Assembly: GCA_009760855.2 (NCBI GenBank)
Contig: WPIO01000017.1
Location: 124,001 to 188,000, forward strand
Length of the DNA stretch: 64,000 nucleotides
From: Cristatella mucedo
Lineage: Eukaryota > Bryozoa > Phylactolaemata > Cristatellidae
Reading direction: 5' to 3'
The number at the start of each line of letters is the position of its first letter. Position 1 is the stretch's first letter. The notes under the pieces are model-generated. The model made no database searches, was not told where the DNA came from, and saw only the letters and a list, made by a program, of their open reading frames with translations. Made by a program: the position numbers and the translations under genes. Positions 13,060 to 49,935 of this stretch are shown one piece after another.

Positions 13060-13310
13060 TTTCGTAAAAATTTTATTCAATAACTGAATAAACTGAAGAA
13101 CATCAGGACTCATAATAATCACTCGTGTCACTATCGCTATCCTCTGTATCAGGTAGGGTAATGATACCTTCTCCATCTTCCTAGATCCTATCACAGGCTT
13201 GAAATTTGGTGGAAACTCGGTTATCATCATATGGTCGTCTTCACTCTCTTCATAGAGTGTGTAATCTTCCGTTTCGTTAGTTGCATTTGAAATGCCATGC
13301 TTACTGAAAG
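13060..13310 (-). CDS. Gene A terminal exon, acidic C-terminus, poly(A) signal
   Basis: On the minus strand an acidic frame starts after a possible acceptor (CGGAG|CTTTC, phase 1). It reads SNATNETEDYTLYEESEDD and later TEFPPNFKP. From about 13,180 a second frame is acidic instead: EDGEGIITLPDT, then EDSDSDTSDYYES and TGA at 13,105-13,103. AATAAA follows at 13,077-13,072. The first frame runs on past the poly(A) signal, so the second frame must be the true end. A single extra base near 13,180-13,190 would join them. I see no good intron between them. Confidence 0.5.
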
Positions 13311-16300
13311 CTCCGAATATAATCAGTGGCATTCACACTAGGTAAGTATGTTCAGTGAAATATAAAGGCAAAAAAGAAAATAAACTCCCATGTAGAAGCT
13401 CTCACCATTGTCTGATAACATATTTTGGAAAAAGGAGGTCATACGCAGGGGGCTCAAGCCCCAGGGCATATGTGAAGCACCTGAATAGAGATTAAGTTCT
13501 CTTCGGGCGCTATATAAATGAATTATATATTTTTTCTCATCTTCATTCAGGATCTTTACGAGCAGACACCACACCGTTCATGATGAACTTGTTCTTTCCT
13601 AGCATGGGCATACCCCTAATATATTTGTGCAAGCAGCTTGGAATAATATTGAGTGATTAGGAGAGTTCTGTTGAGGCACAAGCAAAGAGAAAGACTTAAA
13701 ATATCTATCGATCGGGGTGACAAAATGGCATTCAATTTACAGTAGCAGATTGGGCTAATCCCAAAAGGCAAAGCTAGCTGGTCTAAGCTGTTTTCAGCAC
13801 AGATGACTAAAGGCAAGAACCAAAATCGAATGAGATGGTAGTATGGGCATTTTATCATTTGAATACGGGGCAATAGTTGATGAAGAGGGTCAAGATGCAC
13901 ATTTGTGTAGGCGTTTGATACAGCTGTGGCTGCCTATTAGACCGACAGATTATAAATAGTAAAAACACCTCTTGCCCTTGGGCGTGCCTTAGCAGTTGGC
14001 TACCACTGAGCTTCCCTTGAGTAAAGGTTCAGTGGACACCGTTCACTTAAAGAACATTCTAACGGTTATCGCCTAGACCCTGACATTGGCCTATTGAAAA
14101 TAATGAAACTGCAAGGATGACCTAGCTAAAGCACCAGGAAAGAGATTAGGTTCTCTGAAGGTGCTATACAAATGCATTAATATTAGAATAGCCAACCGTG
14201 CTGCCAGACATATGTTGCTTTGGCCACACATTATTTGAAACTGTCTTCAGCACTTACCTGCACAAGGGTACGCCACTGGAGCCGGTAAAGGAGGCATACG
14301 GGTAAAAGGAGCAAATTCGCATGCGCGATCTAAAAGTTAAAACAAATTAGAGAAAGAAAGCAATGCAGTAATGTGATCGACATTGGTATCTAGTGTGGCA
14401 TCAAGCAAAAACAGCAGGCTTACTTGTTGTCACCACTATGTCTTTGCGATTGATGGTAGTTGCATTTGATGGACAGCAACATTTCTTCAACATTGCGACA
14501 AAAACGATGGTCAAGATGATGGCTGCTATGATACCAATGACGGCACCAGCAGTCCGGCCAGGGCTGAAAGAGCAGCTCAGACTCAGCTCGGTCCGCCATC
14601 ATCGACGGTGCACCCCCAACATCCTCACTAGCAGCAGCAGCAGAATGATAAAGAGGAGAAATTCCTGTCAGAGCCCCGTCCCACAGCAGACGGCTTCTGG
14701 CTGCTCTGTTTTTTTTCTGGATGTGGCTTAAAGCATTTGCAAGAAGTTCGTGGAAATGACTTCATGAATAAGCAAAGCATCTACGGTGAAACCGACAAGG
14801 CAGTGACCTGGGTCAAAGCAAAAAGGAATACGACACATCTACCTCCACTAGGGCAGCATTCTCCAAGGTTCAGCAGTCGGCATATTTAGCCACCATGTTC
14901 TAGGGAGCCATGACTCACTCTCCCCAGAAATCGCAACAGTATTGCTCGTCATCGTCACCGCAGCAGTACGTGGCCGAGTCTTCATCCTCTGCCATGGGGC
15001 AAATAAAGTAACCAAGCGAAGTGCCATTGTCACCTTTAACTTCGCTGTAGCACACCGTGGGATCTATGAATAAAAAACAAAAGAGAAAGCAAAATCTGCC
15101 GATACATAGAGCCGATAGTGTTTCCCTACTTATAGAGTGACTGCATGCCAGATCCCACCTGCACCCCAGACTGGTGCTTGCAAGTAAAGAGCCTTTAATT
15201 GCGTAGGAGCTCGAAGGATTGCATACACACCAGATGCCCAATACAGCAAGCAAAGGTTCAGTATGGAAAATGCATTTAGCTACTGGAGACCAACCACTTT
15301 CTGATACATTGAAGTATCAATCTCGCAGGAACATAACTGGCAGCCATAATCGGTCTATTGACCAGGCAGGCAATAGCTACAGAGTAACCGTGTGCCACCA
15401 CGTTATTTTATTTCATATCTACTTCAAAGTACCACATTTCTAATCTACCTTATTAGTATGAAATGGTTTACTATATGGCATAAACCTCACAATCAAAAGT
15501 TTACAGAACAATCTGCATAATTTGTAGATAATAATAATAATAATAATTCACTTGATAAAGCGCCCTCAGAGAACTTAATCACTCTCTAGGCGCTTTACAT
15601 TTGCTGTAAAGTGATCAGCTGCACATCAGCTAGGGAGGGCTGCAAACTTGCTCTGCCAGGCAACCCGAGACCAAGGTCATTACAGGCTCTTTCCTGTCTG
15701 TTTCCTATGAATGGAGTTTCTCAAAAATGAGATCACTTCAACAGAAGGCTGCTCGATTACAACCAACCCGAAGACATTTAGCATACTGATATTGGTACAG
15801 GCACGGCTCTCATTGTGCTGTGGCCGCCATTTTCCTTCATATGGCATCCGGGCGAGTGCTGACAACCGGATGCTACCCAAAATCAAACAGAATTAAATAC
15901 CACCTTTACTAACGCGAAGATTTCGTGCCAAAATAGCAATCGGGAGCAATGAATTCAAACACACTGTGAGCAGCCACTACGCGAGGACGACTAGTCATGC
16001 TAATTAAAAAGTGAACCAGTTTTTGCAATTGTTGGCGTTAAATCAAAGTAAGAGAAATCGGTTACATTACAAATTTAATCGCTACGATATATTTCCCTTT
16101 TCCAATGTGAGGTATTATACAATTTAACGTTTGCATGACTTAAGAAGCCAAATGTTCAAACTGGAAGTCACGAGCCTAGCATGGATGCTGATAGTCAAGG
16201 CCAAAGTTCAGTACCCTCTCGGCTGACTTCTTGAAACCTAGCTGGACTAGGGAGTGAAAATAGCAAGCCAAGTGCAAGTAGCAGACACGAACGAGCTACG

Positions 16301-17440
16301 AATAATGCCGGCCAGGCGACTTTGCGGGAGGCCGCTTGCAATGGTGACTATATGGCTTGACACAGCTCCTGGCTGGCTCAGCTGCTTTCAGGACACAACC
16401 AAAAAGACTAAGGAACCAGCTTCCGTCGCAGAGAGAACCTATTCAAGCATATTCTGAATTGATGTGCTAGTTGCCAATGCAGCCTATGATCAATTCTAAG
16501 CAGGCCATTGCAGGGCATTCGCACAGTTTCAGCAGACAGGCAAAATGCTGTAAACACCCATGTCCGAGTGTAATTCACCCACACTTATTAAGAGAAGGGG
16601 AGATTACACACAAGGAGAAGGAAGGAAGGGGAGAGTGAGAGTAGGAAAAGAGTGAATGTGAGAGAGGCGGCCAGTACAAAAAGCTGAATTGCTGTGTAGC
16701 TTCTTAAAGAGCTGAAACACTGTCCACGTCTTACCATCGTTATTGCCGGAAACGTAGAGATGTCGAGTCTTGTAATAGCTGTAGCCATATATATGAACAG
16801 TTGGGGGAATCACATAGAAGCGGCTTCCATAGCGAACATTTGTCGTCGATATCCTTACTTTCGTGCTAACGCTGGAGCTGCTACGACGATGGCTGCTGAC
16901 ACCTGATATTACCGTGCTAACACTGGAGCTGCTACGACGATAGCTGCTGTAACCCGATTCGCTTCGGCGTTCACCGGCGAACGCATAGTCTGCAATGGCA
17001 GTAAAACCTATTTTTACATGCAACGAAACCTGGCTAGTATGCTCCTACTTTTAGTAGGCTTGATCAGTCTGTATACCAAATATTTTCTTAAATTGAGATA
17101 TCTTGCTAAGTGGGGTACTTAGCTTCTTCATTTCATAATGGCAGAAATTTTCCGAATACCAAATTTAAGTAGCGTTCGGCCTCAAATGTAGGGTAATATT
17201 GCACTTGGGTAAAAAATGCTGAAGGCACTATTACCATTTTGTTAGTTGCTCTTTAGAATGTAATATTCTAAAATGCATAAGAAGTTCATGGACCAAAACT
17301 ATTGCGAGGCTTTATTAAGCTCGGTTTATGTGGCCGAAAACTCGGCGCTATGCTAAAAATAGCACTCCTTTAAATCTTCACCCGGCTCATTATTGAATTC
17401 AGTTAGTGTTACATTATTTAAAGCCTCACTGCATCTAGCC

Positions 17441-17522
<82 letters not shown>

Positions 17523-17553
17523 CTCTCTCTCTCTCTCTCTCCCTCTCTCTCTT

Positions 17554-17599
<46 letters not shown>

Positions 17600-18725
17600 C
17601 GTGACTGGTGGAGACCCATATTCAACTTAACCCTAATCTTAAAGCATATGTTAATAATGATAATCATGACAAAAATACATTTGATATAGCGATCTCAGAA
17701 AATTCAATCTCTTTCTATGCACTTTACATTTGCTGCAAAGGAAGCACGATCGAATGGTTAGTGGTAGCATGCTCAATAAACAACAAGAATAACATAGTTA
17801 GCGTTGACATGCAAAGGGTCCGCATGCAAGTATGGTTAGTGGTAGCATGCACAGTGTCAGCACACATAAGCACTTAAAAGGACTAATTACAGGGACCCGC
17901 TAAATACTGTGATACATAGATGCGTTTTTAGTTTCTTTTATAATGCCGTCAAGTCAGGAGATGTCGTGACCCAAGTCAGGAGTGAGTCCCAGGCTTTGGG
18001 AGCATACGAACTAAAGGCGCGGTCTCCAGAGGATTTGTGGTTAGTGAGAGGTATAGGTAAATAAATAATAAATAAACCCTAGCTGATTAAAAAGCCTCTT
18101 ATTGTATAGCGACAGAAGAGCCTTTACGGCTATCACCACTGCTTGCAGTGGCGATAAAGGATCGCCCACCACAGGATTCGAACCCACGACCTTGGGACCA
18201 AGGTCGTGAAAGCAACCTGGTGTGCCATCACGGCAAACCGTTTAGATTAAAAAAAGCGGGTGGTACGGTACTAAGCCTGGTGAGGCTGTAGATCTGATAG
18301 GTAGGCTGGAGCCAAAAAATGAAGGGACAAAAAAGTGAGCGACAAAACCTTGAAGCCGATGCGTTGCTTGACTGGGAGCCAGTGCACGTCAGCAAGAAGT
18401 GGTGTAATGTGGCAACTGAGACCCTCACGACAGACAAGCCGATGAGCTGTGAACACCCATCCATGAACTCAACGCCGACAAGATCACAGAGCATTTTAAC
18501 TAGCTAACGGCCAGAGCATCTGCTAACCAGCAGCCGTAGATGAAGCTGGCAGCAAAAGCCAGAGTAGCTCACGTGTGGAGGTAAGAGTAAAAACGCAGCA
18601 TCCACGACGCATTCGCAGACGGTGGTCCGAGAAACGCCCGGCCGGACTTACCGCAGGATGATGGTGCAGAGCACAATGAGCGTCGTCAGCAGCGAGAGGC
18701 CGCAGGGGCGAGGAGCCGCGGCCAT
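13060..18725 (-). CDS. Gene A: Shisa-like single-pass membrane protein (multi-exon)
   Basis: I assembled this gene from six minus-strand exon candidates: 18,725-18,652 (signal peptide), 16,989-16,735 (Ser/Tyr cassette), 15,063-14,919 (Cys domain), 14,563-14,424 (membrane), 14,329-14,258 (Pro-rich) and about 13,310-13,060 (acidic end with AATAAA). Exons 2 to 5 have good GT-AG sites and compatible phases (1, 1, 2, 1, 1). The order of signal peptide, extracellular cysteine domain, membrane helix, CCC and Pro-rich tail is that of the Shisa/CYYR1/WBP1-like superfamily. Shisa proteins modulate maturation or surface trafficking of receptors; a role here is inferred only. Two problems remain. Exon 1 ends in phase 2 although exon 2 needs phase 1, and the last exon needs a one-base shift. 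Either sequence errors, a missed exon or decay could explain them. Introns carry L2 and SINE insertions. Confidence 0.6.
13440..13535 (+). repeat. SINE-A fragment with L2-like tail
   Basis: GGCTCAAGCCCCAGGGCATA, then TGAAGCACCTGAATAGAGA and TTAAGTTCTC, ending TATATAAATGAATTATATA. It is the 3' half of the tRNA-headed family seen complete at 22.5 kb. It lies in the last intron of gene A. Confidence 0.65.
14128..14190 (+). repeat. L2-type 3' tail
   Basis: AAAGCACCAGGAAAGAGATT, AGGTTCTCTGAAGGTGCTAT and a short ATTAATATTA end. It lies between the Pro-rich and terminal exons of gene A. Confidence 0.65.
14258..14329 (-). CDS. Gene A exon 5: Pro-rich cytoplasmic segment
   Basis: A 72-bp exon lies between a strong acceptor (TTTTAACTTTTAG|ATCG) and a strong donor (GTGCAG|GTAAGTGC). 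Joined to the preceding exon in phase 1 it reads NRACEFAPFTRMPPLPAPVA then YPCA. A short cytoplasmic Pro-rich tail after the membrane helix is typical of Shisa and WBP1-like proteins, where such motifs bind WW or SH3 partners. No exact PPxY is seen. Confidence 0.6.
14424..14563 (-). CDS. Gene A exon 4: transmembrane segment
   Basis: Acceptor CTCTTTCAG|CCCTGG and donor ACAACAA|GTAAGC bound a 140-bp exon (phase 2 in, phase 1 out). It encodes PGRTAG, a helix of about 20 hydrophobic residues (AVIGIIAAIILTIVFVAML), then KKCCCPSNATTI. The KKCCC motif directly inside the membrane is a stop-transfer and likely palmitoylation site. The exon start, the GRT motif and the CC cluster are shared with copy B at 35.13 kb and, in decayed form, with copy D at 24.19 kb. 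Confidence 0.75.
14919..15063 (-). CDS. Gene A exon 3: Shisa-like cysteine domain
   Basis: A 145-bp exon lies between TTTATTCATAG|ATCCC and GGGGAGA|GTGAGT. It encodes DPTVCYSEVKG, then LGYFICPMAEDEDSATYCCG and EQYCCDFWG. The order C..., F.CP, YCCG, YCC is the signature of Shisa-type N-terminal domains, which are secreted or luminal and disulphide-bonded. Copy B (35,414-35,561) matches it across the exon, including boundaries and phases 1 and 2. In mammalian Shisa a GTC stretch usually follows YCCG; here that cysteine is replaced by acidic residues. Confidence 0.8.
15525..15620 (-). repeat. L2-type 3' tail, minus orientation
   Basis: AATAATAATAATAATAATTC, then CACTTGATAAAGCGCCCTCA, TCTCTAGGCGCTTTACATTT and GCTGTAAAG. 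It is a well-preserved tail with both arms of the hairpin. It lies in the intron between exons 2 and 3 of gene A. Confidence 0.8.
15621..16734. other. Intron of gene A, nothing else recognised
   Basis: Short frames occur on both strands without motifs. No exon-like GT-AG bounded coding segment was found. Confidence 0.4.
16735..16989 (-). CDS. Gene A exon 2: Ser/Arg/Tyr-rich cassette
   Basis: A 255-bp exon runs from ACTGCCATTGCAG|ACTATG to AACGATG|GTAAGA. It is phase 1 at both ends, so it could be skipped without a frame change. It encodes DYAFAGERR, two in-frame repeats of 17 residues containing RRSSSSVST (period 51 bp, starting at 16,862 and 16,913), and then RYGSRFYV...VHIYGYSYYKTRHLYV. 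The second half matches copy B (RYGYRYS...VSVYGYTYYRTRQLYN). The pattern is a low-complexity region followed by a conserved aromatic block. No known domain is recognised. It lies outside the membrane, before the cysteine domain. Confidence 0.65.
17444..17596. repeat. (CT)n microsatellite
   Basis: About 150 bases of nearly pure CT with a few CCCTC and TTTCCC interruptions, inside intron 1 of gene A. Confidence 0.95.
17640..18059 (-). mobile_element. L2-type LINE 3' end (minus), part 1
   Basis: The tail starts at about 17,650 (AATAATGATAATC, AAATACATTTGATATAGCGA, TTCTATGCACTTTACATTTG) and continues into the 3' UTR and C-terminal coding end shared with 26.3, 47.8 and 54.4 kb. The matching C-terminal region continues at 18,238 after a SINE-B unit, so a SINE landed inside this L2. 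Confidence 0.75.
18062..18237 (-). mobile_element. SINE-B, inserted in an L2
   Basis: Minus-strand reading gives a tRNA-like head with a B-box-like GGGTTCGAATCC near 18,185. The family hairpin follows (GGGCGATCCTTTATCGCC), then GTGGTGATAGCCGTAAAGGC and CTCTTCTGTCGCTATAC, ending in GGCTTTTTAATCAGCTAG. The surrounding sequence is one L2 copy interrupted at this point. Confidence 0.75.
18238..18490 (-). mobile_element. L2-type LINE C-terminal coding remnant, part 2
   Basis: The minus strand reads CREGLSCHITPLLADVHWLP, then VKQRIGFKVLSLTF and FLAPAYLSDLQPHQA. This is the characteristic C-terminus of L2/CR1-type reverse transcriptase polyproteins. It is broken at both ends. Confidence 0.75.
18652..18725 (-). 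CDS. Gene A exon 1: signal peptide
   Basis: ATG at 18,725 begins MAAAPRPCGLSLLTTLIVLC then TIIL. It ends in the donor CTGCG|GTAAGTCC, identical over 13 bases to the donor of copy B. A short N-region and a hydrophobic core make a clear signal peptide. The coding part is 74 bp, against 76 bp in copies B and C, so it leaves a phase-2 overhang. The next recognised exon needs phase 1. Either an unseen exon lies between, or two bases are missing. Confidence 0.6.
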
Positions 18726-18929
18726 CGCAGCTGAGCTGGGAGCAAGTGGCCCTGCGGATGTATCATCGCCACTGTGTGGTTCCGCCCTCAGCCGACGTTC
18801 CATCCGCCCGACGGAGTTCGCCGAATTACCGCAATTCACTCTGATTAAGCTAACGGCGACCAGACATCAAGGTTGCCCGCTCCAACCAGTTTGGAATATA
18901 TAACTAGGCTACGCGTACAATATACCCAC

Positions 18930-19960
18930 AAAATTTTACACGATTCCGTGCAAGCATTCTCACGAAGTCCACTGAAATAAGATTTCGGTGGCCAGGCCTA
19001 TACCACAATCCACCGAGATCCGCTGCATTCCACCGCCGTGCAACGAAAACAAATCCTGTTCTAAAAATTTCTGTTTTGATTGCATATGACAGCACACTCT
19101 GCGAAAATTGTACTTAAAAACTTTCACTTGCATTGGCACTGCCGTTCTCGTGCAATACGCTGCAATCGACTGCAGCAGCCCGGGCCAATACCGAAATTCA
19201 CTTCAATCCACCGCATAAAAAATCGAAATACGTTGCACCGAGTTCCAGTTTCTATTGTATATTAAAGTTCACATTTTTTGTGCACAATCGCTTAAAATAA
19301 AAAAAATTGTGCATCCTCGCACTGCGGCAGTGGGCGGCAATCGTCTGAAATGACCTGAAAAACTCCTACAATCCACTCTATTCATCTGAAAACCATCCTC
19401 AAATCGCCATCGCGAAGTTCTACTTGACATTGCATATAGAAAGAGACTCAGTTCAAAGGGAAAACACAAAATTTTGCTCCATTGTTCACACGCATTCTCG
19501 TGCAATGAATTGCAATCGACTGCAACTATCCGGTCCCATTCCCCAATCCACTTCAATCCACTGAAACCCTCTGCACAGCGACCAGAACGCGTACATTAGA
19601 AGCTCTAATTATGATTGCACGCTTCTCTACTCTTCGGTTATTGTGTACTCGCATAACTTCCCTGTAATTGCCTCGACCATTCAGCAGCATTGCACTGCAA
19701 TCAACTGCAACTGCCCGGGCCAGTACACCAATACACCTAAATCCGCCAAAAAAACAAGCAGAATACGTACACTTTAAGCTCTAATAGTGATTGCACATTG
19801 CTCTAATTTTTGGTTATTGTGTAATCGCACAATTTTAATACAATAACCTCAACCATTCGGCAGAAAGGCACTGCAATTTACTGTAATTGTGCGGGCCAAT
19901 GCGGCAATCCACAGCAATCTGGTGCAAAGTGCCCTGAAATCGGTTTCGCCATGCTCCAAT
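18930..19960. repeat. Diverged ~180-bp tandem satellite
   Basis: A core resembling TGCAATCGACTGCAACTGCC, CGGGCCAATACC and CAATCCACTTCAATCCACCG recurs at 19,161, 19,511, 19,696 and 19,872. Weaker copies lie near 18,990 and 19,330. Spacings are about 350 (two units), 185 and 176. Monomers have diverged strongly. No coding potential is seen. It ends about 200 bp upstream of exon 1 of gene A. Confidence 0.75.
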
Positions 19961-20546
19961 TTTGAATGCCTGTTACAAAGCATACAATAGAGTCTTTAAC
20001 GAACAATGGCGGTCTCCCTGAACCACGCAGTAACGCTCGTGCCTGTTGCAAGCGGCGCCAGCAGTCAGTATCAGCATTGTCTTGTAAAATGGTGGGGGGA
20101 CCATCATGACCAGACTCGTTGAATCGGCTCGCCGAAGGCGTGACACCCAGCAAGCCTCTAGGGCTGCCCTCTTAAGCTTGGCAGTCTCCCATCGTAGTCT
20201 CAGTAGTCACCCGCTTTCCGCGGCCAGCATGGGATGCTAAAGAAGCAGAGGGGGCGTACTCAGACATAATCTCGTTAGAGTAGCCCAGCCGGTCCCTTAA
20301 CCATGCAACACCTATTGCACAGGCCTAAACTTCCCTCACTCCATCCCTTCACCGTTAGTAGTAAATTCGTGCTGACTTGTATGCTACAAACGATTCGAAT
20401 TCAAAATTATGCAGATGATTAAAATGTAATCCTCTAAGAATTCACACAACGAGTGATGCAGTGTCGAGCTGACAACAAAACAATTCACTTTGAAGGTCCG
20501 TAATTGGAGCAATCTGGCAGCGTGCCATAAACGGTCGCCATACTAG

Positions 20547-20592
<46 letters not shown>

Positions 20593-20650
20593 CATTTATA
20601 TAGCGCCCCAAAAGAACTTAGTTAACTTTCGAGGGGAGCTTACTTAAAAA
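20547..20650 (-). repeat. (TA)n tract and degraded L2-like tail
   Basis: About 42 bases of TA are followed by TTCATTTATATAGCGCCCCA and AAAGAACTTAG. This is a worn minus-orientation L2 tail whose AT repeat has probably expanded. Confidence 0.6.
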
Positions 20651-20659
20651 CTGCTTGAG

Positions 20660-21584
20660 GTAGAAGCGAGTTACAGGTGACCACTACCTGGGATAATAAA
20701 TGTCTGAACAATTTATTATTTAGGATAAGTGCACAATCAACACAGCCGGAATGGCCTATAGTAGCCATCTATTTTTGATTACCACACTTATGCAGGAGTT
20801 GCCTGGAGCATGTTTATAAGGTAAAAGTTACACGTCGCTAAAGCGGATCAAAACCTACGCATAAATTTCAGCAGGCGTATTGCTGGACATGCCGAATGTC
20901 TCGTTGCATGGTGGAAGCTGCATCTGTGCAGCAGATGGATGTGGGGTGCAGAAATGTGCTCGACCTGTACAATGGAATGAAGCGACTTCAGAAGATCCTC
21001 ATTTTGATACCATTTGCAGCAGCATTGTTCAATAATCTGAGTTCTATACTAAAGCAAAACAGCTTAGCGTATTAACTACTATGATAATTTTATTTTGGAA
21101 AACAATACTAGATTGAACGATCAAGTAGTGCATAACTGAAGCAAAGTGCATGTTCTGTGAATCTTAAAAAAAGGCATTCTACCTAACAAGTACTGCTACA
21201 TTGTTCTCAATTTACAGTGCATTCTAGGGGTGTTAGTTTTCTTTTTCACTTTCCTTTAGAACGACAAAGAGATTCCATAAGCAGCTCAAACCATTGCCAC
21301 CATTTATAAGCTCCAAGAAACACGGTTAAGCCTTCGTTATTTGCTCAATGACTGCAATACAATTGAAACATGAAATGAGGCCTATACACCGCTATTTGAA
21401 GTTCAAGGAGCTCTACTTCCTAATATCTGTCACGGAGCACAGCTTGTCAAAGATATGTATCTCGTTCGTATGAATGGACACATGTATGCATAATGCCAGG
21501 GAGTCAGCAATCAAAGCCAGGTTATTTATATCCTATACTTATAACAGTATGAATAGAATCGTCACATCAGTCCATAGAGAGAGA

Positions 21585-21625
<41 letters not shown>

Positions 21626-22510
21626 TTATGGCTTTAGGCAAATAGAAACTTAAAGTGAGTCTTTGAAGGATGTGAGCATTTTAGGTTGTCCAGAGGCACA
21701 GCTAAATCATATTTAGAAGAGCAGGTAGTACGAAAAAAACCAAGAGAAATCAGTATTACAGATAGTCAAAAGGAAGCAAGAGAATGATGAACACACAAAG
21801 TGAGAGATTAGATCTTGACGTCATAGTGCTGCTCAAGGGAGGCCATCACATGTCAACCAGAAGAGAAGTAATGTCACAGTTGTCATGAAAGAGACAAAGA
21901 AGCTTAGCTAATGCATTGTTATGCAAAAGAGCTTGAATTAATAATGCAACATTAAAGTGACAATTGAGTTTTTTTTAGTGAGGCCTTTGAGACAAAATTG
22001 TCATCCAAACCTGAAACCAATTGCATATATAATAAGCTGTAGAATGTTCCACCATATCCAAGCGTATTATTCTACTTTTGTGAAGGATTTCGCGACAAGA
22101 AGTATACAATTTTAGATTGATGTCACAAACTAAGCCTCCTCTATGCGACGGGTAACTGATTTCGATCATCTAACAAAAGGTCAATTTGGACAAAAGCCCC
22201 AAAATTATACCGAACGTTACAGTGATTCCAGGTAAGCGATTTAAAAGAAGAACTACGCGTCCAGTTCGTGAGTGAGACTAGTTATTCCAATCAGTGATGT
22301 AGTAGCACTAGCCACAGTCAGCCGCTAGAGCTGCCAAAGGAGACCACCATGAGTAGTAAAAGATCCGGGTTTTCTTGTATGGTTCCCTTGAGCTGTGCCC
22401 CATGTCGGCCGTGAGAAGGCTTCATGATGGCCACATTATTGCCAGAGCTAATGTTTCAAGTATGACGTAATGATCTCGGAGGCTAGGTAGCTGTATGCCC
22501 CCCCCCCGAT
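20660..22510. other. Unassigned stretch with a (GA)n tract
   Basis: A (GA)n run sits at 21,580-21,622. No coding, RNA or transposon signature was otherwise recognised. Confidence 0.4.
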
Positions 22511-22519
22511 TTCGCCGAT

Positions 22520-22668
22520 ATTAGCCGACCTGGTTTGGTCCAGCGGTTAAGGTGCTTGCCCCGACCAAGGTCTGCCTGAGGTCGTGGACTCAAGCCCCAA
22601 GGCATATGTGAAGCGCCTGAATGGAGATTATGTTCTCTGAGAGTGCCATGCAAATGAATTATATATTT

Positions 22669-22670
<2 letters not shown>
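22520..22670 (+). mobile_element. SINE-A, near-complete (tRNA head, L2 tail)
   Basis: An A-box-like TGGTCCAGCGGTTAAGGTGC is followed about 35 bases later by a B-box-like GGTCGTGGACTCAAGCC. The L2-type tail comes next (GTGAAGCGCCTGAATGGAGA, TGTTCTCTGAGAGTGCCATG), then an AT-rich end that has grown into a TA/GA microsatellite. It is a classic tail-sharing SINE structure: RNA polymerase III promoter in front, LINE recognition sequence behind. Confidence 0.8.

Positions 22671-22731
<61 letters not shown>
22671..22731. repeat. (TA)n(GA)n microsatellite
   Basis: A TA run passes directly into a GA run at the end of the SINE-A copy, probably seeded by its AT-rich tail. Confidence 0.9.
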
Positions 22732-23076
22732 CCAGGAAAATACACTTTAGTTCCGTGTTGCTTATGCAGCACTGAACCGCTAAGTTACCTGACTGATTCT
22801 GCGGCTCATAGTGGGTTGGAGGCTAAGGGGTCGTTGCTCAATACTGGTCACTTGTATGGAAACCCTTACAGCTGTCGACTCACAGAAAACTATTACATTT
22901 GTCGTCGTAAGTTTCCTTGAAGCATTAGGTTGTTAAAGGGATAGCAAGGGTGCGACGTTTATCTCCAATCCCGCGACTTGGTACGTGGGCTGCACACTTC
23001 AGCAACTTGAGGAACATAGTCTACAAATAGAAGTTCGGCCATGCTGTTAGTCATGTCGCTAGCGATCACCAATGTA

Positions 23077-23580
23077 CTACTGAGCCACTCTTTGAGACCC
23101 GATCTTCGGTCTTTTTCCGTTGGTCAGAGTGCAGGCTGCTTGGTGACGAAATGGCGACAGATGGGTGAGGAAAGTGGCAGAAGCGGCATGGCCGGGGCGG
23201 ACCATCGTCCGACTGCTGCCGATAACCTCGGCCCGGCCGCCGCTGGAGGAAGTGTGGTAATTCCTATGTCGCGTGATGTGCGAAGCGTGATTCTCGGAAA
23301 CAACTGCGGTCGTCGCCTCAGGACCGGTGTGAGGGGGCAGGGAGCCCACTCCTCCAGCGGCCGGTGCACTGCCACTTCCAGCCGGTGCAACCACTTGGTT
23401 CGGTGCAACAGATTGACCTGGCTCATTATATGCTGTGTGGGGCAAGGAGACAGCAGTGGCTGGCTTAAACTCAGTGGCAGCCACTGCAAACGTTGGATAG
23501 AAAATCAACACTTGGCGTGACGCTAGGCCACGGCCCTCCAAGTGCAAAACAGAAGTAGAGCATGTCGCACACTCAGACAA
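23077..23580 (-). CDS. Uncharacterised 167-codon open frame within a dispersed repeat
   Basis: This minus-strand frame begins MSECATCSTSV and is rich in Ala, Gly, Pro, Ser and Thr. Its first part (LEGRGLASRQVLIFYPTF and onward) is conserved in frame at positions 1-100 on the minus strand, with conservative changes. CpG content is high. I do not recognise the protein. It could be a gag-like or accessory ORF of a retroelement, or an exon of a host gene copied with it. No zinc knuckle or reverse transcriptase motif is visible. Confidence 0.3.
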   Translation of the reverse strand: MSECATCSTSVLHLEGRGLASRQVLIFYPTFAVAATEFKPATAVSLPHTAYNEPGQSVAPNQVVAPAGSGSAPAAGGVGSLPPHTGPEATTAVVSENHASHITRHRNYHTSSSGGRAEVIGSSRTMVRPGHAASATFLTHLSPFRHQAACTLTNGKRPKIGSQRVAQ

Positions 23581-24050
23581 AGATCATCCAATCGGCAGCG
23601 CTCACTGGTCTGTACAGTTTGCGATCAAAGAGGCACGAGAAGAAGATTTGGAAAGAACGAACACGAAGTCTTGCCGTTACCATGGAGATAGAGTGGGAAG
23701 AGGGACAAAAAAGAAACAAGTGGGAGGGATTACTAAAGAGGACTGTAGCAGAGAAATGGAATAGACACGACAGATGCCGAGAGTGACAGGCGGGCAGAGT
23801 GCGAGAGAAGCGGAAACTGACACTTACTTAGCTGTGGTTAAGAAATTCAAGAATCAGACTGAAAATTGAAGGGTAAGTAAGTACGTGAATAATTCAGAAC
23901 AGCAACCTCGGACAACAGAAGCTTAGTAATGATGAGTATCAATTCTCTAGTGTGATTTGTAAAGCGCTTAGTTAGAGATATAGTTCTCTGTGCGAAGTAA
24001 AAGCTACACAATGCTGTTTTTACCACCAATATTATTATTCTAATAATTAA
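23460..24050. repeat. Dispersed repeat, copy 2 of the 1-606 unit
   Basis: It matches 1-606 across its length, including the AACAGCAAC, CAACAGAAGCTTAGTAATGA and TGAGTAT blocks. It ends in an L2-like tail (TTGTAAAGCGCTTAGTTAGA) at about 23,955-24,050. The unit extends further left here (to about 23,040) than the other copy can show. Confidence 0.75.
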
Positions 24051-24109
24051 ATGAGGCAATTCTGCACTATGTAATATATCTCCGTCTGTAACTCCACAAA
24101 GTCTTAAAG

Positions 24110-25324
24110 ACACTAGTATGATGGCTACATCGATCAGGCGATGGTCTATACGAAACCAATCGTGACACTGGTAGTCCGGCCAGAACTGAAGCAATACATG
24201 GATACATAACATACACATAGCATTGTAGCCTAGTTCCAGGGGTCAAAGACTAGTTCCCGCCAAATCCCGCTATACTCCGGCCACGCTGCCGCTCGCCATG
24301 CCACTGAGCCAGGGTAAGACGAGCGGCCGTCAGGTTAAGCCTCTTTATAATAACGCATGCACCAACAACAACAGGGGAACTAAACAAGTCTACAGGGATG
24401 GTCATAAACAAATTACACTATAGGGGCGCAAGACGACGCAGCAACCGCGAACAAACTTGTTAGTTGGTCATTCGGCTTCCACCGTCGTCGGCCTCCGTCC
24501 CACAAGTACAAGCATACGCCGTACAAGACCCGGCTTACTGAATATTCTGAGATTGACGGGGCAGACGTCCGCAAAAGTCGAGAGCTTCCGCCGAAAGACG
24601 CCAACACACCCCCTGGGGGGTCACGAACACGCTATACGGGGAACGTGGAATTCACAAGTCTCAACAACTAGCGAGCTATCCACCTCCGCTCGGGCCTTGG
24701 GTACTCGTCGCCTTGCGTGCGTGGCTGCATCGCCGGAGCACGCCTGCAACCATCCAGGTGCCGATAACTCGGCGAGACCGGGAGCCTCCAACGCCACGCC
24801 TTACTCGGCCAACGTCTCCTGCCCAAGAGCCCCGGTGACCTCTCGTCACCACACATTCGGCCATGGCGTAGGTCCGACCCCGGCCTAGCCGGTGACTCTC
24901 ATTACAGCCGTCCGGTCACAGCCAACCGCCTGGTACAGCATAACAGCATAGTACCTAGATCGTCCTAATCGATCATGCTGCAGTAGCAGAGGCAATAAAT
25001 ACATGTACAACACATAGCTGCCTACCTGTCAGATTAAGTCTAGAAAGTACAAGCAGGCGAGGGGTACACAAGCAAAGCCAGGATGTGCCTTGTGAATACA
25101 GATGACTGGAACGCAACGTATTGACCTAGCTGCCAGTTCGGGTGCCAGCCATGAAGGCACAAGCGCTCTAGCAGCCTCTAGCTCGCCGTGGCTCAATCTA
25201 CCCAGAAATCCCAGCGGTACTGCATCACTTCGATAGCTGTAGGTGTGGGCATGTGCGTCATTTGCCGTTCCACAAACCAGGTATTCGATTGATCTTCCAA
25301 TGCAACCAAGTATACTATCGGTAT
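24110..25324 (-). pseudogene. Copy D: decayed Shisa-like gene, two pseudo-exons
   Basis: The first pseudo-exon (25,324-25,197) aligns with the Cys exons of A and B. The acceptor is kept (TTTGTAG|ATAC). YLVC stands for YFIC and T-Y for the T-Y before CC, then a frameshift leads to QYRWDFW in place of QYCCDFW. Most cysteines are gone and the donor GTGAGT has become TTGAGC. The second (about 24,190-24,110) aligns with the membrane exon: ATTGCTTCAG|TTCTGGCC, then SGRTTSVTIGFV and a stop. Order and strand agree with A and B. The CpG-rich stretch between them (24.4-24.9 kb) was probably inserted or has simply drifted. Confidence 0.65.
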
Positions 25325-25417
25325 CTACAAAGGAGTCTGCGGATGTGTGCGGGTCTTTGATTGCTGGAAAACTGCTAGCATCAGCGTCCACAAACCATTC
25401 GATCCTGCTTCCTTTGC

Positions 25418-25495
25418 AGCGAATGTAAAGTGCCCAGAAAGAGATTGAGCTCTCGGAGGGCGCTGTAAAAAATGTATTAATATTATTATTACTTG
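25418..25495 (+). repeat. L2-type 3' tail
   Basis: TTTGCAGCGAATGTAAAGTG, CCCAGAAAGAGATTGAGCTC, GGAGGGCGCTGT and ATTAATATTATTATT. Confidence 0.8.
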
Positions 25496-25799
25496 CATGT
25501 ACCGGCGTGGCATGTGCGACTCGTTAGCTGCACTTCGAAGCATTGGCAGCACAAACGTGTATACTAGCATTGGTTACGTGTGCAATTTTTGTGACGTCAG
25601 ACTTCGATTCCTGAGGCACTGCACTGCGTTCGTAACAAAATTGAGCGTGAATTTCTGAAGCACTCTTAAAGAAAAATGGCTGCTCGGTTATGGTTGGCCT
25701 GATGACCACTAAGTCAAAGATAAACAAAGATTCACAGTAGTGATAAGGTGAGGACGTATTGGGCGGCTCGGCATGGGGGTGATACCCTATACAAGACAA

Positions 25800-26275
25800 T
25801 GTGATACCCTATACAAAACATCATGTCTGTCTGTCTGTCTGGGTCGAATCATAAGGACGCAGTCTTAGTATATTTGGATATTTTAATTCCACCGGAGAAC
25901 GACTGCAAATTCATCAACCTGTATTAAAGACCTCAGTTTCCTAAGAGGCCTTCAAAGAGTGCTCAGGTAGCAGGGCCACTTGAAAAAGACACTGAGTGAG
26001 TACGCAGCACAACACTGACGTTTTCTCAGCATGGACTTTCGTAGATTTTCATTCTCATTCATAGCATTTTCTCAGCATAGCTGCGAAACAAAAAAGAAGC
26101 TTAAACACGACAGCATTGGTTACACCAAAACATAGTTTATGTTACCCTCGTTGTTTGTGCTAATTTGTATCTATAAGACATATAAATAAATATGGTTAGC
26201 AAATTTAAGTCCCATAGAATAGGGATCAAAACTCCCCACCCCTTCAGCTATTCCACCACTATGGATATAGGAAAT
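25800..26275. other. Unassigned stretch
   Basis: A short duplication (GATACCCTATACAA twice, around 25,781 and 25,802) and a TGTC run (TGTCTGTCTGTCTG at about 25,825) are present. No gene was recognised. Confidence 0.45.
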
Positions 26276-26278
26276 ACT

Positions 26279-27590
26279 ACTAATAATAATGATGATCATG
26301 CACTTGATAAAGCGCCCTCAGAGAACTTAATCTCTTTCTAGGCGTCTTGCATTTGCTGAAAAGGAAACCGCGATTGAATGGTGAGTAATATGATGCTTGA
26401 TAAACAAACAAAATGAATAACATGGTTAGGGGTGACATGCACAGGGTCAGCATGCAAATGTGGTTAGTGGCAGCATGCACAATGTCAGCACGCATAAGCA
26501 CGTGAAGGACGAATCCCTGGGACCCACTAAATACTGTCCTAAATAGGTGTGTTTTTAAATTCTTTTTAAATGTGGTCAGGTCATGGGATGTTCTGACGCA
26601 GGTCGGGAGGGAGTTCTAGACTTTGGGAGCATATGAGCTGAATGCACGGTCTCCAAAGGATTTAAGGTTTGTACGAGGTATTTCCAGACTGTCGGATTCC
26701 GAAAAGCGGGTGGTACGATGCTTGGCCTGATGGGGGAGTAAATCTGAGAGGTAAGCTGGAGCCAAAGAATGAAGGGACCTAAAAGTGAGCGACAAAATCT
26801 TGAAGTCAATCCGTTGCTTGACTGGTAGCCAGTGCAGGTCGGCGAGAAGTGGAGTAATGGGGCAACTGAGACGCCCATGACAGAAAAACCTAGCTGCAGA
26901 GTTTTGCACCGGCTGCAATCGCCTGATCGCACATGCTGGTAGGCCAGCAAGCGGTGAGTTACAGAAGTCGAGACGGGATGTCACGAATGCATGGACCAAC
27001 TTGGACGTGGTATCCTTATCTAAACAAGCCCGAATTTTAGCAATGTTATGAAGCTGAAAATAGGCAGATTTGACTGTGGAACTGGTATGGTCGGCTAACG
27101 AGAGGTCGCTTTGGATTATGACACCTAGATTTCGAGCTGATTCAACTGGAGATATGCTGGCAGAGCCAATTTTGAGCGTCAGCCTTTCCAATGTGTGAAT
27201 TACACTGGGTTTGCCCATAACTAGTAAGTTAGTTTTATTATCGTTTAGTTTTAGAAAATTTGCTGCCATCCATGTGCAGATGTCATCAATACATGCAGCA
27301 AGTAAGTTGAGAGAATTTGAGGTGCTCGAAGGTTGGGAGGGATCAAAGCAAAGGTACATCTGAGTGTCATCCGCATAGAAGTGAAAGCCTAGATTATGCT
27401 TGGAAATTACATCAGCAAGAGGGAGAGTATAAACCGTGAAAAGAACCGGACCTAGCACGGAGCCCTGAGGTACCCCATATTTCAGAGGTACCTCAGATGA
27501 TCTTTGTCCATTCACGTCAATACTCTGGAGTCTCCCACTGAGATAGGACCTAAACCACTGCAGAGTGGTGCCAGTGATGCCAGTGGACTA
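26279..27590 (-). mobile_element. L2-type LINE, 1.3-kb 5'-truncated copy with reverse transcriptase
   Basis: This is the longest L2 copy. The frame is open on the minus strand from the 5' truncation at about 27,588 to about 26,616. It carries the reverse transcriptase motifs GVPQGSVLGP and FYADDTQMYL (the YADD catalytic pair), then ARNLGVIIQSDLS, FCNSPLAGLP, and the C-terminal LLADLHWLPVKQRIDFKILS. A 3' UTR and the hairpin tail with TTATTATTA follow to 26,279. It works by target-primed reverse transcription in the family. The palm motif A half and the N-terminal endonuclease are missing, so it is inactive, but the unbroken frame suggests a fairly recent insertion. Confidence 0.9.
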
Positions 27591-27599
27591 TATTAATGA

Positions 27600-29260
27600 A
27601 GAAAGCAACTAACGAAGAAATTAACTAATGAAGAAGCAAAATCTTTGTCAGCGTAAACTTGTAAGAATCGATAGCTGCATAGTTTGGCTTTTAACTGGGT
27701 AGTCAAGAGATATCTGGGTTTCAGTCGGCAGATTGCTCACCATGTTTTCAGGACGAGCGCTATCAAGCAACAGACGTTCAATAAAAACGAATTGTGCGTC
27801 GGTCAACGAATCCCGAGCACACCGAAATCTAATTCGCAGTAAGAGCGACTGAAACTCATGACAAAACGTGACAAGACGTGGCTCAGAGAAAGATTGTGGG
27901 CAAACCAAAATGGCGCTGTTAATAAGTCTTTTGGGTAGAGCAATCTTCGAATGCATAGCTGTCAGCTCTCGACCTACTTATCTGTGCTGAAATCGCATCA
28001 ATGGATATTGCAAAGCGAGAAAACACGCCTTGTAAGGAGATCCTACCAAGCAGCGCTATCTGCAGAGAATTTATGGCCATCGGAAACTTGGAACGACCGC
28101 GACGATTGGTCAGCGCACGTGCAGCAAATTATACATCGAGGCAAAGGCCAAGTGAAGCACATCTGCATGCACCAAGAAGTTGTTCGGAAGGCTGAGAGCG
28201 CTACACTACCAGGAGGAGCCTCGGACAGGAAGATCAGCCTGACTTTTAACGTTTTCACGTGCGATTTGATCAGGATTCTACACGCAATCGGCCCAAGATG
28301 CGATGCGTGGCCCCCAATTGAAAGGTCAATGCAGAAAGCTTTTGCAGTAAATTGTCTATTATGCCGTCAATCCGACGACGTAGCCGTAAATTTCTACACG
28401 GTGCCACTTCCTTAGTGGCAGTTTAATGCCAGCACTTCTAACTTATAAGTAGAGGTATAATAAAGAATACAGTCCACACTATTCTCATGTCCACAAACCA
28501 CCTTTCGCCTAAAATAGGTGCTTGTCTAAAAGAAATAAGTTCATGTCTTTGAAAAGGGGAATGAAGAGGCGCGTGCAAAATTTGACGATTTTATTATAAG
28601 ATCAAGTGCTGGTCGCAAAATTTACGTATTGCTAACTCTCAATTCAATTCGTGGTTTGCCTATCGCTATAGTGAATTACACCTTCAGACTTGGTATAATA
28701 TAATAACGCCATACAGTTTCTAGTTGCGTATAGTTCTCTCACGGTTGCATGCTAGATCAAAAGCTGAAACAAATAGAGAAAGGAATGGCCTTGAAGCTAG
28801 TGATAAATAATGAACTGCCATTGGCAAGAAACGCTAGCACACGCGGACTCTGTAGCCAGTGCCGGAGCACAAAACGAAATACTAGCTGATAAATTTTCCT
28901 AGCCGGAGCCATGAAATGACACTTTAGCAGTAATCAAAAGAGCTAACCTGACTCGGATACGTTTCCTTCGTACTTTTTCCGCTGTTGCGAGGAAATGTTT
29001 CGCCGGGGAGCTTTCATTATCCAATCTTGCTTGCTCTATTGTTTGCCGTTAGCGGCGACTGAGAGCTTATTCTATTTCGGCTAGTAAGCCGTTACTTTTG
29101 GGAATAATCTCCCTTCTTGGCTGAGTACCACGGGTGTAGGCGCCAACGGTCACCGACCGAGCAGCTTCCCTTCTGTAGGCTTCCCGCGCTTCGTAATCCA
29201 GGACGAAGAGATTCTCTCACCCAGGCTTTCGCCACTCTGCAACGAAATGAGCTTCCGACG
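27600..29260. other. Unassigned stretch with a 154-codon plus-strand frame
   Basis: A plus-strand frame at 27,951-28,415 starts MHSCQLSTYLSVLKS and ends VAVNFYTVPLP. It is among the longest frames here outside repeats and L2s. I see no domain, signal peptide or splice context that supports it, and a minus-strand frame overlaps part of it. It may be chance. Confidence 0.25.
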
Positions 29261-29267
29261 CCGAAAG

Positions 29268-29340
29268 AAAGCGCCTAGAAAGAGACTGAGTTCTCTGAGG
29301 GCGCTTTATCAAGTGCATTATTATTATTATTATTATTGCC
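29268..29340 (+). repeat. L2-type 3' tail
   Basis: GAAAGCGCCTAGAAAGAGAC, TGAGTTCTCTGAGGGCGCTT, TATCAAGTGCATTATTATT. It is a near-consensus copy. Confidence 0.85.
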
Positions 29341-29344
29341 ATCA

Positions 29345-29790
29345 GCCTGGGAGAACTGGGTGGACCTACGAGAGCTCAGACTCGGCCTCAGCAGACGCAG
29401 GCTCTCGAGCGGGCGGCGGAGGGGGCAGACAACGACATTCGGCAGACGACTCGGCGAAGTCCAACCAAAGTCTATGCACTGGCGGCATCTGTGCGGACAT
29501 CCATCTACCGCAAGCTGCTACCAGCTGGTCGGGAGGGTCCCCCGAACGAACAATGGCTACACGATAATGCAAGCACGCTGCACGCATCATGGAAGATAAG
29601 GAGCTGCCGAAGGAGTAGGAGAGAAGAGGATCCTTCGACCGGCAGCCGCCTAGAGTGTGCAGACTGGGCGTGGCCGGCGTGGTTTGCAGAATCGAGTCCT
29701 CTTCGTCGGAGCCAGCAGGCTTGCTGCTCGGTCGTGCTACCCAGCCCGACGGCAGGTCTTGCAGAGGGCTCACACTTTCGGCGTCTTTTC
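29345..29790. other. CpG-rich stretch open on both strands
   Basis: The plus strand is Ser/Gly-rich (TYESSDSASADAGSRAGGGG). The minus strand is open for 135 codons and includes KPAGSDEEDSILQTTPATP. One of them may be exonic, but there is no decisive splice signal. It directly precedes a good plus-strand splice acceptor at 29,791-29,792, so it could be a 5' exon or an intron of that unit. Confidence 0.25.
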
Positions 29791-29792
29791 AG

Positions 29793-29930
29793 CTAGCTAA
29801 AATGCTCGCCTCAAATCAATCGAAGAAGAACCCTCTTGCGGTGCTGAGAGAAGAAGCTCTTGAGATTGAGGGATTAGATACTTTGCAGCAGAGTGAAAGG
29901 ATGAGACATTTAAGGAAATTTGGTTTGTAA
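29793..29930 (+). CDS. Small ORF or exon of 42 codons
   Basis: A strong acceptor (GGCGTCTTTTCAG|CTAGCTAAAATG) is followed by ATG at 29,802 and a 42-residue frame ending in TAA at 29,930. It starts MLASNQSKKNPLAVLREEAL and ends ERMRHLRKFGL. The peptide is charged and predicted helical, with regular Leu spacing, no signal peptide and no low complexity. It looks more like real protein than the neighbouring frames. It could be a complete micropeptide whose 5' UTR is split by an intron, or an exon that continues by a weak donor (GGTTT|GTAAAC). I do not recognise it. Confidence 0.4.
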   Translation, partial: LAKMLASNQSKKNPLAVLREEALEIEGLDTLQQSERMRHLRKFGL

Positions 29931-30556: not shown

Positions 30557-30632
30557 ATGGCCACACCATCGCAATGGGGCCCTTCAAGGCTGGCCGCCCT
30601 CATCCTGCTTTGTGCTGCGACGCTATCCATTG
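30557..30632 (+). CDS. Copy C: orphan signal-peptide exon of the Shisa-like family
   Basis: ATG at 30,557 in a good start context (GAAGCCATGG) encodes MATPSQWGPSRLAALILLCA then ATLSI. It ends at donor ATTG|GTAAGT. Length (76 bp) and phase (1) equal those of exon 1 of copy B, and RLAALILLCAAT aligns with QLAALVLCCTAT. It is thus a paralogous first exon in inverted orientation. I found no matching cassette, cysteine or membrane exon on the plus strand to its right within the window. The gene may have very long introns, continue outside the window, or be a partial duplicate. Confidence 0.6.
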
Positions 30633-30639
30633 GTAAGTT

Positions 30640-32420: not shown

Positions 32421-32426
32421 GTGCAG

Positions 32427-32503
32427 CAACTATAAAGTGCCTAGAGAGAGAGATTCAGTTCACTGAGGGTGCTATTAAAATGTATTAATATTATTATTAT
32501 TGC
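32427..32503 (+). repeat. L2-type 3' tail
   Basis: GCAACTATAAAGTGCCTAGA, then a GAGATTCAGTTCACTGAGGG core and ATTAATATTATTATTATT. Confidence 0.75.
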
Positions 32504-32639
32504 CTAGGAGACGCAATCTTAATTTTGTACAGAAATGTGTACAGACCGAAAAGCTATTTAGACGTTAATTAATATTGGTCTAATGGATAGAATTGCGTTG
32601 TACAATTCCTGGATATTTTCAGTGCGCTGACCAGAGTTC

Positions 32640-34290
32640 CCAGAGAGCGTGAACTCGGACTTGAATCACTCGCAACTGTCTTTCCCTTCGACTACAAATG
32701 ATGGTCCATCTTTTTGAAGCAACAAAATCAATTCATCTTGAAGGGACAAATCACATTTTCAGCGTCATTTGACAACTGTTCGACGACAACTTCTATATCT
32801 TAAACTTCAAAAAGACGAGACGCTCGATTTCCTGCGAAATTAGTAATAGTTTTTGACGGGGCGACAGTTGGATCTCTGAGACTGAGCAAGTGGTTCATGA
32901 TCCTCGTTCAGTCGCTCTTCAAAGCGACACTTCAAATTTTGCATGAGCTTGGTACTAATATCATGATTCAGGTTAGAGAGCTTGTTGACCATGAATTCTA
33001 AAATTGTGTCAGCACTCATTAACGTCGCGTATTCCGACTTTGAATCTCAACGGCAAGTTTCACAGGTTTCATTGCCTTCAGAAGAGTTTTGAGAGCGTCA
33101 ACATCCAATTTCTCAATCCTTTTCATGCCTTGAATTTGGTTAGTGTCTCTCAGATGGCAACTTCTGGCTTTACTAATGCTCTAAGTTGTTGGGATAGAGT
33201 TCAAGTACGTCTTTAAGTCAAGATGCAGTTCAATCTCGCATCTGACCTCAGCCGTTATCTTGGGTTGAAAGACATTATTTCGTTCAATTGGTTATTGATT
33301 AATTTGACAAGCTTGCATGAGTTCCTTAGCAGATCAGAGATTATAGTAATCAAAGTCTCCCAAGTCTATTATCACTGATCACATCCAAGTTCGTACCTGC
33401 TTCAAAGTATTCCATTTCGTATATATAGTCACTATCCGAGTTTAATTCGTCTAGCTCGGTACTCTTCTAGAACATACTCCGATGTGCAGACCAGGGTTTA
33501 AGCAGATGTTCGATGACGTAGATGTGGCTAATGCGTTTCTTATTTACTGCAGCGCCATCCTGATTAGATCCTACAAAATCCCACTCTATTGTTATTCCAA
33601 AAACGCTCAAATGTTATTTCGTTAATTCGACCATATCTAGGGTAGTGCACGAACCAAATATGCGAACAAGAGCCGTATTTCTTGCTGTTTTATCGCCGCT
33701 ATCATGAATGTTGACTCCGAAGAATTGACGTCGTCTCACTGTTGTGTATTCATTCACAGTCATGCTAAACTTTACTCCACTCTCAATATTTTCTTGATAT
33801 CGGCATTTTTTGTTTCTCTTTTCGTCGTAATCATCATACGCCAGCTTCATCACATCGCTTTCGTTCGCTGGAATTTTGAATCCTTTCCGTGAAATATATT
33901 GCCGTATACTCTTTTCTAGTGATAGCTCTCATCGATAATCCATCAGTAGCCAGATTAGTAAAAATCTCCTTCAGACTTTTGCGCCCAGGAAATCAGAAAT
34001 CGATTTTTTTCTCTTATTGTTCTCTGGCCCTTCCTTAGATATACATCCTCCAGCAGCTTTATCAAAATCAATTCCATTAATTTTCAGATGATTCTTTAAG
34101 TTTGTCGTGGAGCATTCAGAACATTTGATGATTGTATTTCAATTTCCACATTTTTCTTCTAGCTCTTACGTCATTGGATTCCTTCGTTTCGTGACATATT
34201 CCCAAACTTTTATTCCAAAGACATGGCTGAAAATAACATCAAAGTTTGTTGATGCCACACGATCAATTTATATCTTACTTAACCTTTTCA
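32640..34290 (-). pseudogene. hAT-type transposase remnant with BED-like zinc finger
   Basis: On the minus strand broken frames give, in order, KVWEYVTKRRNP and IIKCSECSTTNLKNHLKIN (a BED finger, C..C with a distal LKNHL). These are followed by a variable linker, then MTVNEYTTVRRRQFFGVNIH and ALVRIFGSCT (33.64-33.75 kb). Further on come EIELHLDLKTYLNS, MKRIEKLDVDALKTLLKAMK then PVKLAVE, and SADTILEFMVNKLSNLNHDI (to about 32.96 kb). The order matches hAT/ZBED transposases, which cut and paste with an RNase H-like fold. Many stops and shifts show it is dead. I could not find terminal inverted repeats or an 8-bp target duplication by eye. Confidence 0.7.
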
Positions 34291-34619
34291 AAATTTCACT
34301 TTAATTTCAATTTTTTCCAATTTGATCAAATTATAAAAAATTCAATAACATATTCAAAAGGAATTTATAAATTTTGTCCGTTACATAGCTAATGTCCATA
34401 ATGAACATTAAAACTTTCGTTGCAGTGTCTTTTTGTTTAGAAATTGCCGTTAGACACAGTAAACAGTCAGAACAATAGCTGTTTAAAGTTTTTTTTGATT
34501 TAGGATAAAAAATAGCTGTTTTACTGTTTCTGTTAAACAATTACCAGAAACCCTACCAGTCAGGAAAGTAGCTTCGCCAAGCAGGATCTAAGAACATGAT
34601 TTTGACAATTGGACGAGGC

Positions 34620-34715
34620 ATACTTACAGCGATATAAAGTGCCTAGAAAGAGATTGAGTTCTCTGGGTAATCTATTTCAAATTTATGATTATTATATTAT
34701 TGTTATTATTATTTT
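34620..34715 (+). repeat. L2-type 3' tail
   Basis: TTACAGCGATATAAAGTGCC, TAGAAAGAGATTGAGTTCTC and AT-rich TTATTATT repeats. Confidence 0.75.
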
Positions 34716-34855
34716 TATTTTTGTCAGTCCTCAGTACTCACTAGCAAACTAAATCCTTAGAACAGAATCCAAAATAATATTGAGCGGGTAGTCCTGCCCA
34801 AAATTCTGGCAACAAGGTTCAAGCAGAGCCTTAGACAAGTAGCCAAGAATATTAC

Positions 34856-49935
<15,080 letters not shown>

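Follow-up and report, generated by a model that had tools for sequence, protein, structure and literature searches.

Two multi-exon genes on the minus strand of a Cristatella mucedo contig raise the question of what kind of membrane protein they encode, and of whether they belong to a gene family that has expanded locally. The stretch of DNA analysed here, referred to as the window, comprises 64,000 nucleotides (C88:124001-188000); feature coordinates are given in window numbering unless they are prefixed with C88 or C676. The genome searched comprised 572,011,866 bases in 688 contigs, and genome searches were run exon by exon, with only the best candidates being scored. Judged from sequence, and with a probability that we put at roughly 0.7, the two genes (A and B) are part of a small, young birth-and-death cluster that encodes Shisa-like (STMC6-type) type I single-pass membrane proteins. 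Three gene copies were found on one contig (A, B, and E), together with a remnant (D), and a distant relative (F) lies elsewhere in the genome. The exons follow one order, in which a signal peptide-like exon is followed by a Ser/Tyr-rich symmetric exon, a six-cysteine domain, a hydrophobic helix, and juxtamembrane cysteines (Table 1).

Table 1. Positions of the exons of A and B, of the pieces D and C, and of the cysteine-exon matches of E and F.
Feature	Coordinates	Strand	Description
A exon 1	18725-18652	minus	signal peptide-like, 74 nt, phase 2 at its end
A exon 2	16989-16735	minus	Ser/Tyr-rich symmetric cassette, phase 1-1, 255 nt
A exon 3	15063-14919	minus	six-cysteine domain, 145 nt, phase 1-2
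A exon 4	14563-14424	minus	GRT, hydrophobic helix, and juxtamembrane CCC, 140 nt, phase 2-1
A exon 5	14329-14258	minus	tail containing Pro; counterpart present in E
B exon 1	49935-49860	minus	signal peptide-like; ACG at the place of ATG
B exon 2	43987-43685	minus	Ser/Tyr-rich cassette, phase 1-1, 303 nt, seven N-glycosylation sequons
B exon 3	35561-35414	minus	cysteine domain, 148 nt, phase 1-2; one member of a CC pair lost, extra Cys
B exon 4	35130-34856	minus	GRT, helix, and juxtamembrane Cys unit (three times), 275 nt, phase 2-1
D decayed exon 3	25336-25197	minus	most cysteines and donor GT lost
D probable decayed exon 4	24190-24139	minus	blastn E-value 0.33, alone not significant; order and spacing fit
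C signal peptide-like exon	30557-30632	plus	donor GTAAGT; family membership uncertain
E Cys-exon match	C88:102759-102905	same as A and B	98% identity to A
F Cys-exon match	C676:2060987-2061094		on another contig; 50% identity to A

The exon borders of A and B were found to carry AG before and GT after each exon from exon 2 onward, and GT also follows exon 1. Exon order and intron phases are common to both genes from exon 2 onward, and over the same extent the joins are free of stops in each gene. Given these borders, matching phases, and open joins, the exons and splice sites proposed in the preliminary description are considered real. The architecture that it held to be shared by A and B is indeed shared from exon 2 onward; the first exon of A is out of frame at the obvious acceptor, and that of B lacks an ATG. 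Exon 2, which it had called a symmetric cassette, was correctly so described, having the same phase at both ends in A and in B. Within this exon of A, 21 Ser and 10 Tyr occur among 85 residues; the exon 2 acceptor of B (GGAG) is a predicted one, picked because it preserves phase 1. Inside exon 4 of B, a 60-nt tandem repeat (2.8 copies, 35044-34875 on the minus strand) was detected, and each unit carries a juxtamembrane cysteine cluster. By hydropathy, the proteins have the single membrane helix that marks Shisa members, with best 19-residue values of 3.05 in A, 3.5 in B, and 2.16 in exon 4 of F; the helix of E differs from that of A by two conservative changes.

Further copies were sought across the full genome, a check that had been suggested earlier, and this search added E and F, both of which lie outside the window. 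When the cysteine exon of A was used as query, four matches were obtained, namely A, E, B (66% identical), and F. The five exons of E lie on the same strand between C88:115262 and 101815, that is 8.7-22.2 kb to the left of the window, and E is free of stops from its ATG through exon 5. For F, an exon 3 of 187 nt and an exon 4 of 113 nt containing a helix were delineated, both bordered by AG and GT and in phase agreement with the other copies; this exon 4 is a candidate that was chosen by hydropathy and phase. A 47-residue exon 2 query matched the genome at three places (E, A, and B). The cysteine exon of F, used in turn as query, matched five places, namely F itself, A, B, E, and one further place that was taken as a chance match; the latter, on contig C653 (E-value 1.52), was rejected, its locus being without such a cysteine pattern. 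Taken together, A, B, E, and the remnant D support the local expansion that had been claimed for this genome.

The relationships among the copies were then assessed from their divergence. The cysteine exons of A and B are 63% identical, and the likeness of the two genes is more than chance. Over 169 codons, A and B gave a dN of 0.41 and a dS of 1.37, and exon 3 alone (47 codons) gave a dN of 0.22 and a dS of 2.59; dS values of this size are rough estimates, and gaps occur in the alignments of exons 2 and 4. Such values indicate that A and B are old paralogues with a constrained cysteine exon. Among the DNA matches listed between them, the only one covering an exon was that of exon 3 (168 bp, 69.6%), the other rows looking by eye like dispersed repeats. 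Between A and E, a dN of 0.086 and a dS of 0.133 were obtained (192 codons), and the DNA identity of these two copies extends into introns, with 83.6% over 134 bp around exon 1, 88.8% over 1,380 bp around exon 2, 88.4% over 508 bp around exon 3, and 96.75% over 1,323 bp covering exons 4-5. This identity, introns included, points to a fairly recent duplication with a 3′ block that is younger or converted. In that block (C88:138847-137530 versus C88:102407-101087), which stands out from the 84-89% of the other A-E blocks, either gene conversion or a second duplication is possible.

Among the three cluster genes, only E was seen with exons 1-5 in frame, and its first exon is hydrophobic by hydropathy. 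The ends of A and B bear on the reading that both window copies are dying pseudogenes and that only E, perhaps with F, works. Exon 1 of A falls short of the 82 nt of its counterpart in E, from which it differs by alignment gaps of 3 nt and 5 nt, and when it is joined at the obvious exon 2 acceptor, a stop appears in frame; an acceptor 28 nt further downstream, however, gives an open frame from the same exon. In B, no ATG in frame with exon 1 was found back to the upstream stop, and ACG stands where E and C show ATG, yet translation could begin at this ACG as a non-AUG codon, or the base could reflect a sequencing artefact or an allelic variant. The last exon that had been proposed for A, with its boundary at 13060, found no support: read in phase from the acceptor at 13303, the sequence runs into a stop after 25 codons, a longer open frame nearby sits in another phase, and E has no counterpart of this exon. 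That the in-phase last exon of A fails, and that D is dead, fits a pair of dying genes; the joins of A and B that stay open from exon 2, and the low dN/dS of their exon 3, do not. We conclude that A may be damaged at its first junction and B at its start codon. The chance that both are dying pseudogenes is considerable, if somewhat short of even, and such an outcome would be compatible with a Shisa-like birth-and-death cluster.

Two further pieces lie between the genes. The exon 3 of D gave a 38-residue ungapped match to exon 3 of A, starting at the matching acceptor, and with the A exon 3 query its score was reached by none of 300 shuffles, in which doublets of a 3-kb stretch were rearranged (this is not a true dinucleotide-preserving shuffle). 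The description of D as a decayed copy was thereby borne out. With the other queries, the best score was reached by 16 of 300 shuffles (B exon 3), 16 of 300 (A exon 4), and 28 of 300 (B exon 4), and the best match of the A exon 4 query lay elsewhere than at the exon 4 remnant; this remnant therefore rests on its position and on a weak blastn match. The orphan first exon C is signal-like with a good donor, but it lies on the opposite strand from the genes, and its similarity to the first exons of B and E is weak (tblastn E-value about 0.02).

Other elements were also observed in this region. Copies of a LINE-like element sit between the gene pieces. On the minus strand, an open stretch of 323 codons (27587-26619) matched the reverse transcriptase family RVT_1 at 51.5 bits (cut-off 29.6), and a piece similar to this stretch (48608-48180) gave no Pfam match at E-values up to 0.1. 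A broken coding-looking stretch on the same strand (34230-32540) is transposase-like by eye. Elsewhere in the genome, five COX1-like stretches were found on four contigs (C166:4375626-4376390, C83, C549, and C299) in addition to that on C688. Some contain internal TAA or TAG, and these extra stretches are probably nuclear mitochondrial DNA copies or assembly leftovers. Mitochondrial COX1 was translated with five code tables; reading ATA as M, AGR as S, and AAA as K agrees with conserved positions, which points to the invertebrate mitochondrial code and probably to a protostome.

The assignment of the cluster to the Shisa family was examined with Pfam profiles. Shisa_N (PF13908, cut-off 22 bits) headed the Pfam matches of A, E, and F, with 19.5 bits for exons 2-5 of A, 20.3 for full E, 22.4 for exons 3 and 4 of E, and 18.2 for F; B gave no Shisa_N match in this Pfam search. 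When every cysteine was fixed in place and the rest was shuffled, none of 10 sequences matched Shisa_N. In a search of the genome with Shisa_N at E-values up to 10, six matches were returned and nine candidates were scored; the loci of E (25.2 bits) and A (25.1 bits) were the only two of the six above the cut-off, the next scoring 19.2, and at E-values up to 0.001 no match was returned. In the profile check of the joined cysteine and membrane exons that the preliminary description had proposed, Shisa_N passed its cut-off with exons 3 and 4 of E but not with exons 2-5 of A, full E, or F, and no match to the WBP1 or CYYR1 profile reached the respective cut-off. WBP-1 (PF11669) was absent from the Pfam match lists, and none of its 10 genome matches passed the cut-off or lay at the cluster; CYYR1 (PF10873) reached 14.4 bits against a cut-off of 31, with none of its five genome matches over the cut-off or at the cluster.

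The cysteine patterns were C-C-CC-CC in A and E, C-C-C-C-CC in B, and C-C-CCC-CC in F, which has a seventh cysteine and is without the juxtamembrane cysteines. The classical Shisa pattern is given as C*C*CC*C*CC*C in the accessible part of PMC10531659, and this eight-cysteine arrangement occurs in none of A, B, E, and F. No [LP]PxY motif was present in the known exons of these four copies, a scan that covered exons other than the final ones. One helix with six cysteines, by which STMC6 proteins are defined (taken via the portion of PMC6125347 at hand), was found in A and E; B also has six cysteines, one of them shifted, and F has seven. The earlier label Shisa-like accordingly holds in part, through the top-ranking family and the genome loci of A and E over the cut-off, but it does not extend to a profile match in B, to the classical cysteine pattern, or to PPxY. 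The best reading of these sequences is that the cluster is Shisa-like in the broad STMC6 sense, and not Shisa proper.

The same results could be accounted for by a separate cysteine-rich single-pass family that converged on a Shisa-like layout and has its own role. Scores close to the Shisa_N cut-off, a B copy that matches no such profile, the missing eight-cysteine pattern and PPxY, and genome searches in which neither WBP-1 nor CYYR1 passed its cut-off would all agree with convergence; nevertheless, Shisa_N ranks first for A, E, and even the divergent F, and it was not matched by the cysteine-preserving shuffles. We consider a separate family unlikely. The reference fold for Shisa proteins would be that of the Shisa-3 ectodomain (5m0w); a fold search gave no structure match. 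By sequence, a profile of the four cysteine exons, in which the F sequence ended before its last cysteines, returned 12 PDB matches with HSP90 first (E-value 0.28) and Shisa-3 last (E-value 9.4). When exons 3 and 4 of E (C88:102904-101982) were compared with PDB by phmmer, antibody heavy chains appeared among the best 60 of 270 matches, with a best E-value of 0.00099 along DSATYCC...EQYCCDFWG, a likeness to the end of the heavy-chain variable domain, as would be expected if the cysteine exon derived from part of a V-type immunoglobulin domain. However, no immunoglobulin family was among the Pfam matches of six proteins at E-values up to 10, the four-sequence profile returned no antibody in its 12 rows, the motif is not kept in B and F, and the exon is only 49 residues long. 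An immunoglobulin origin is thus highly improbable; the resemblance was judged to be chance or convergence, and it shows how a single short sequence can mislead. A DUF4118 match in exon 2 of B (cut-off 28.4), which scored 21 bits with the joined protein and 17.8 when this exon was taken by itself, was likewise rejected as chance.

That the cluster encodes Shisa-like proteins of STMC6 type remains the explanation that we favour because A, B, E, and exons 3-4 of F have matching phases and join without stops, because of the Shisa_N ranking together with the shuffle result and an A-B cysteine exon dN/dS well below 1, and because A, B, and E carry juxtamembrane cysteines that resemble those of Shisa-1 to 5, as far as the available text of PMC10531659 describes them. 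According to the same text, Shisa proteins share with these genes a cysteine-rich ectodomain with paired CC, one helix, and juxtamembrane cysteines, and the first exon here may encode the signal peptide that Shisa proteins have; the copies studied here differ in having six cysteines (A and E) instead of eight, no [LP]PxY in the known exons, and an extra Ser/Tyr exon. With the STMC6 group (WBP1, WBP1L, VOPP1, CYYR1, and TMEM92), they share a single helix, the six-cysteine count (in A and E), and FW aromatics after the last CC (PMC11399591 and PMC6125347, in the parts available), but WBP-1 was absent from the Pfam matches, CYYR1 was weak, and no PPxY occurs in the exons known here.

In the portion of PMC11399591 consulted, CYYR1 and WBP1L are described as recruiting NEDD4-like E3 ligases, with PPxY motifs in their family, and lipidation of the juxtamembrane cysteines has been proposed for Shisa-1 to 5 (PMC10531659, in part). 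From such family precedent, we infer for the present proteins a possible role as receptor-trafficking adaptors. The cysteine domain would form a small disulphide-held ectodomain that touches a client receptor or channel on its luminal side, palmitoylation of the juxtamembrane cysteines may occur, and the tail could draw in cytosolic sorting factors, such that the protein would tune the trafficking of its client. Exon 2 is predicted to encode a stalk that is exposed and, in B, bears N-glycans. The cluster itself would evolve by duplication, divergence, and decay, with D as its dead member. More tentatively, and with odds on the lower side of even, the genes may constitute a Shisa-like subfamily confined to this lineage, set apart by a symmetric Ser/Tyr exon newly inserted ahead of the cysteine domain; the stalk sequons and the tripled cysteine unit of B would then diversify fast via short tandem repeats, and the glycosylation and membrane lipidation of the adaptors would be retuned while the cysteine domain stayed constant.

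Independent Shisa-like expansions are known in cephalochordates, hemichordates, and vertebrates, and one or two genes are reported per Shisa-bearing protostome in the available part of PMC7653359, as compared with three clustered copies and one elsewhere in this genome. In the accessible portions of the literature on Shisa together with invertebrate or lineage-specific expansion, with lophotrochozoans (where a mussel transcriptome only was retrieved), or with tandem duplication, no description of this cluster was found. The find is a real but modest one, a new and partly decaying cluster of a known gene kind, and a believable new branch of an established family. The general picture of Shisa-like proteins would stay unchanged. 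If expressed, the cluster would represent a Shisa-like expansion in an apparent protostome, where, in the part of PMC7653359 available, one or two genes have been reported, and it would show clearly how an exon cassette and repeats can change around a cysteine domain that stays constant.
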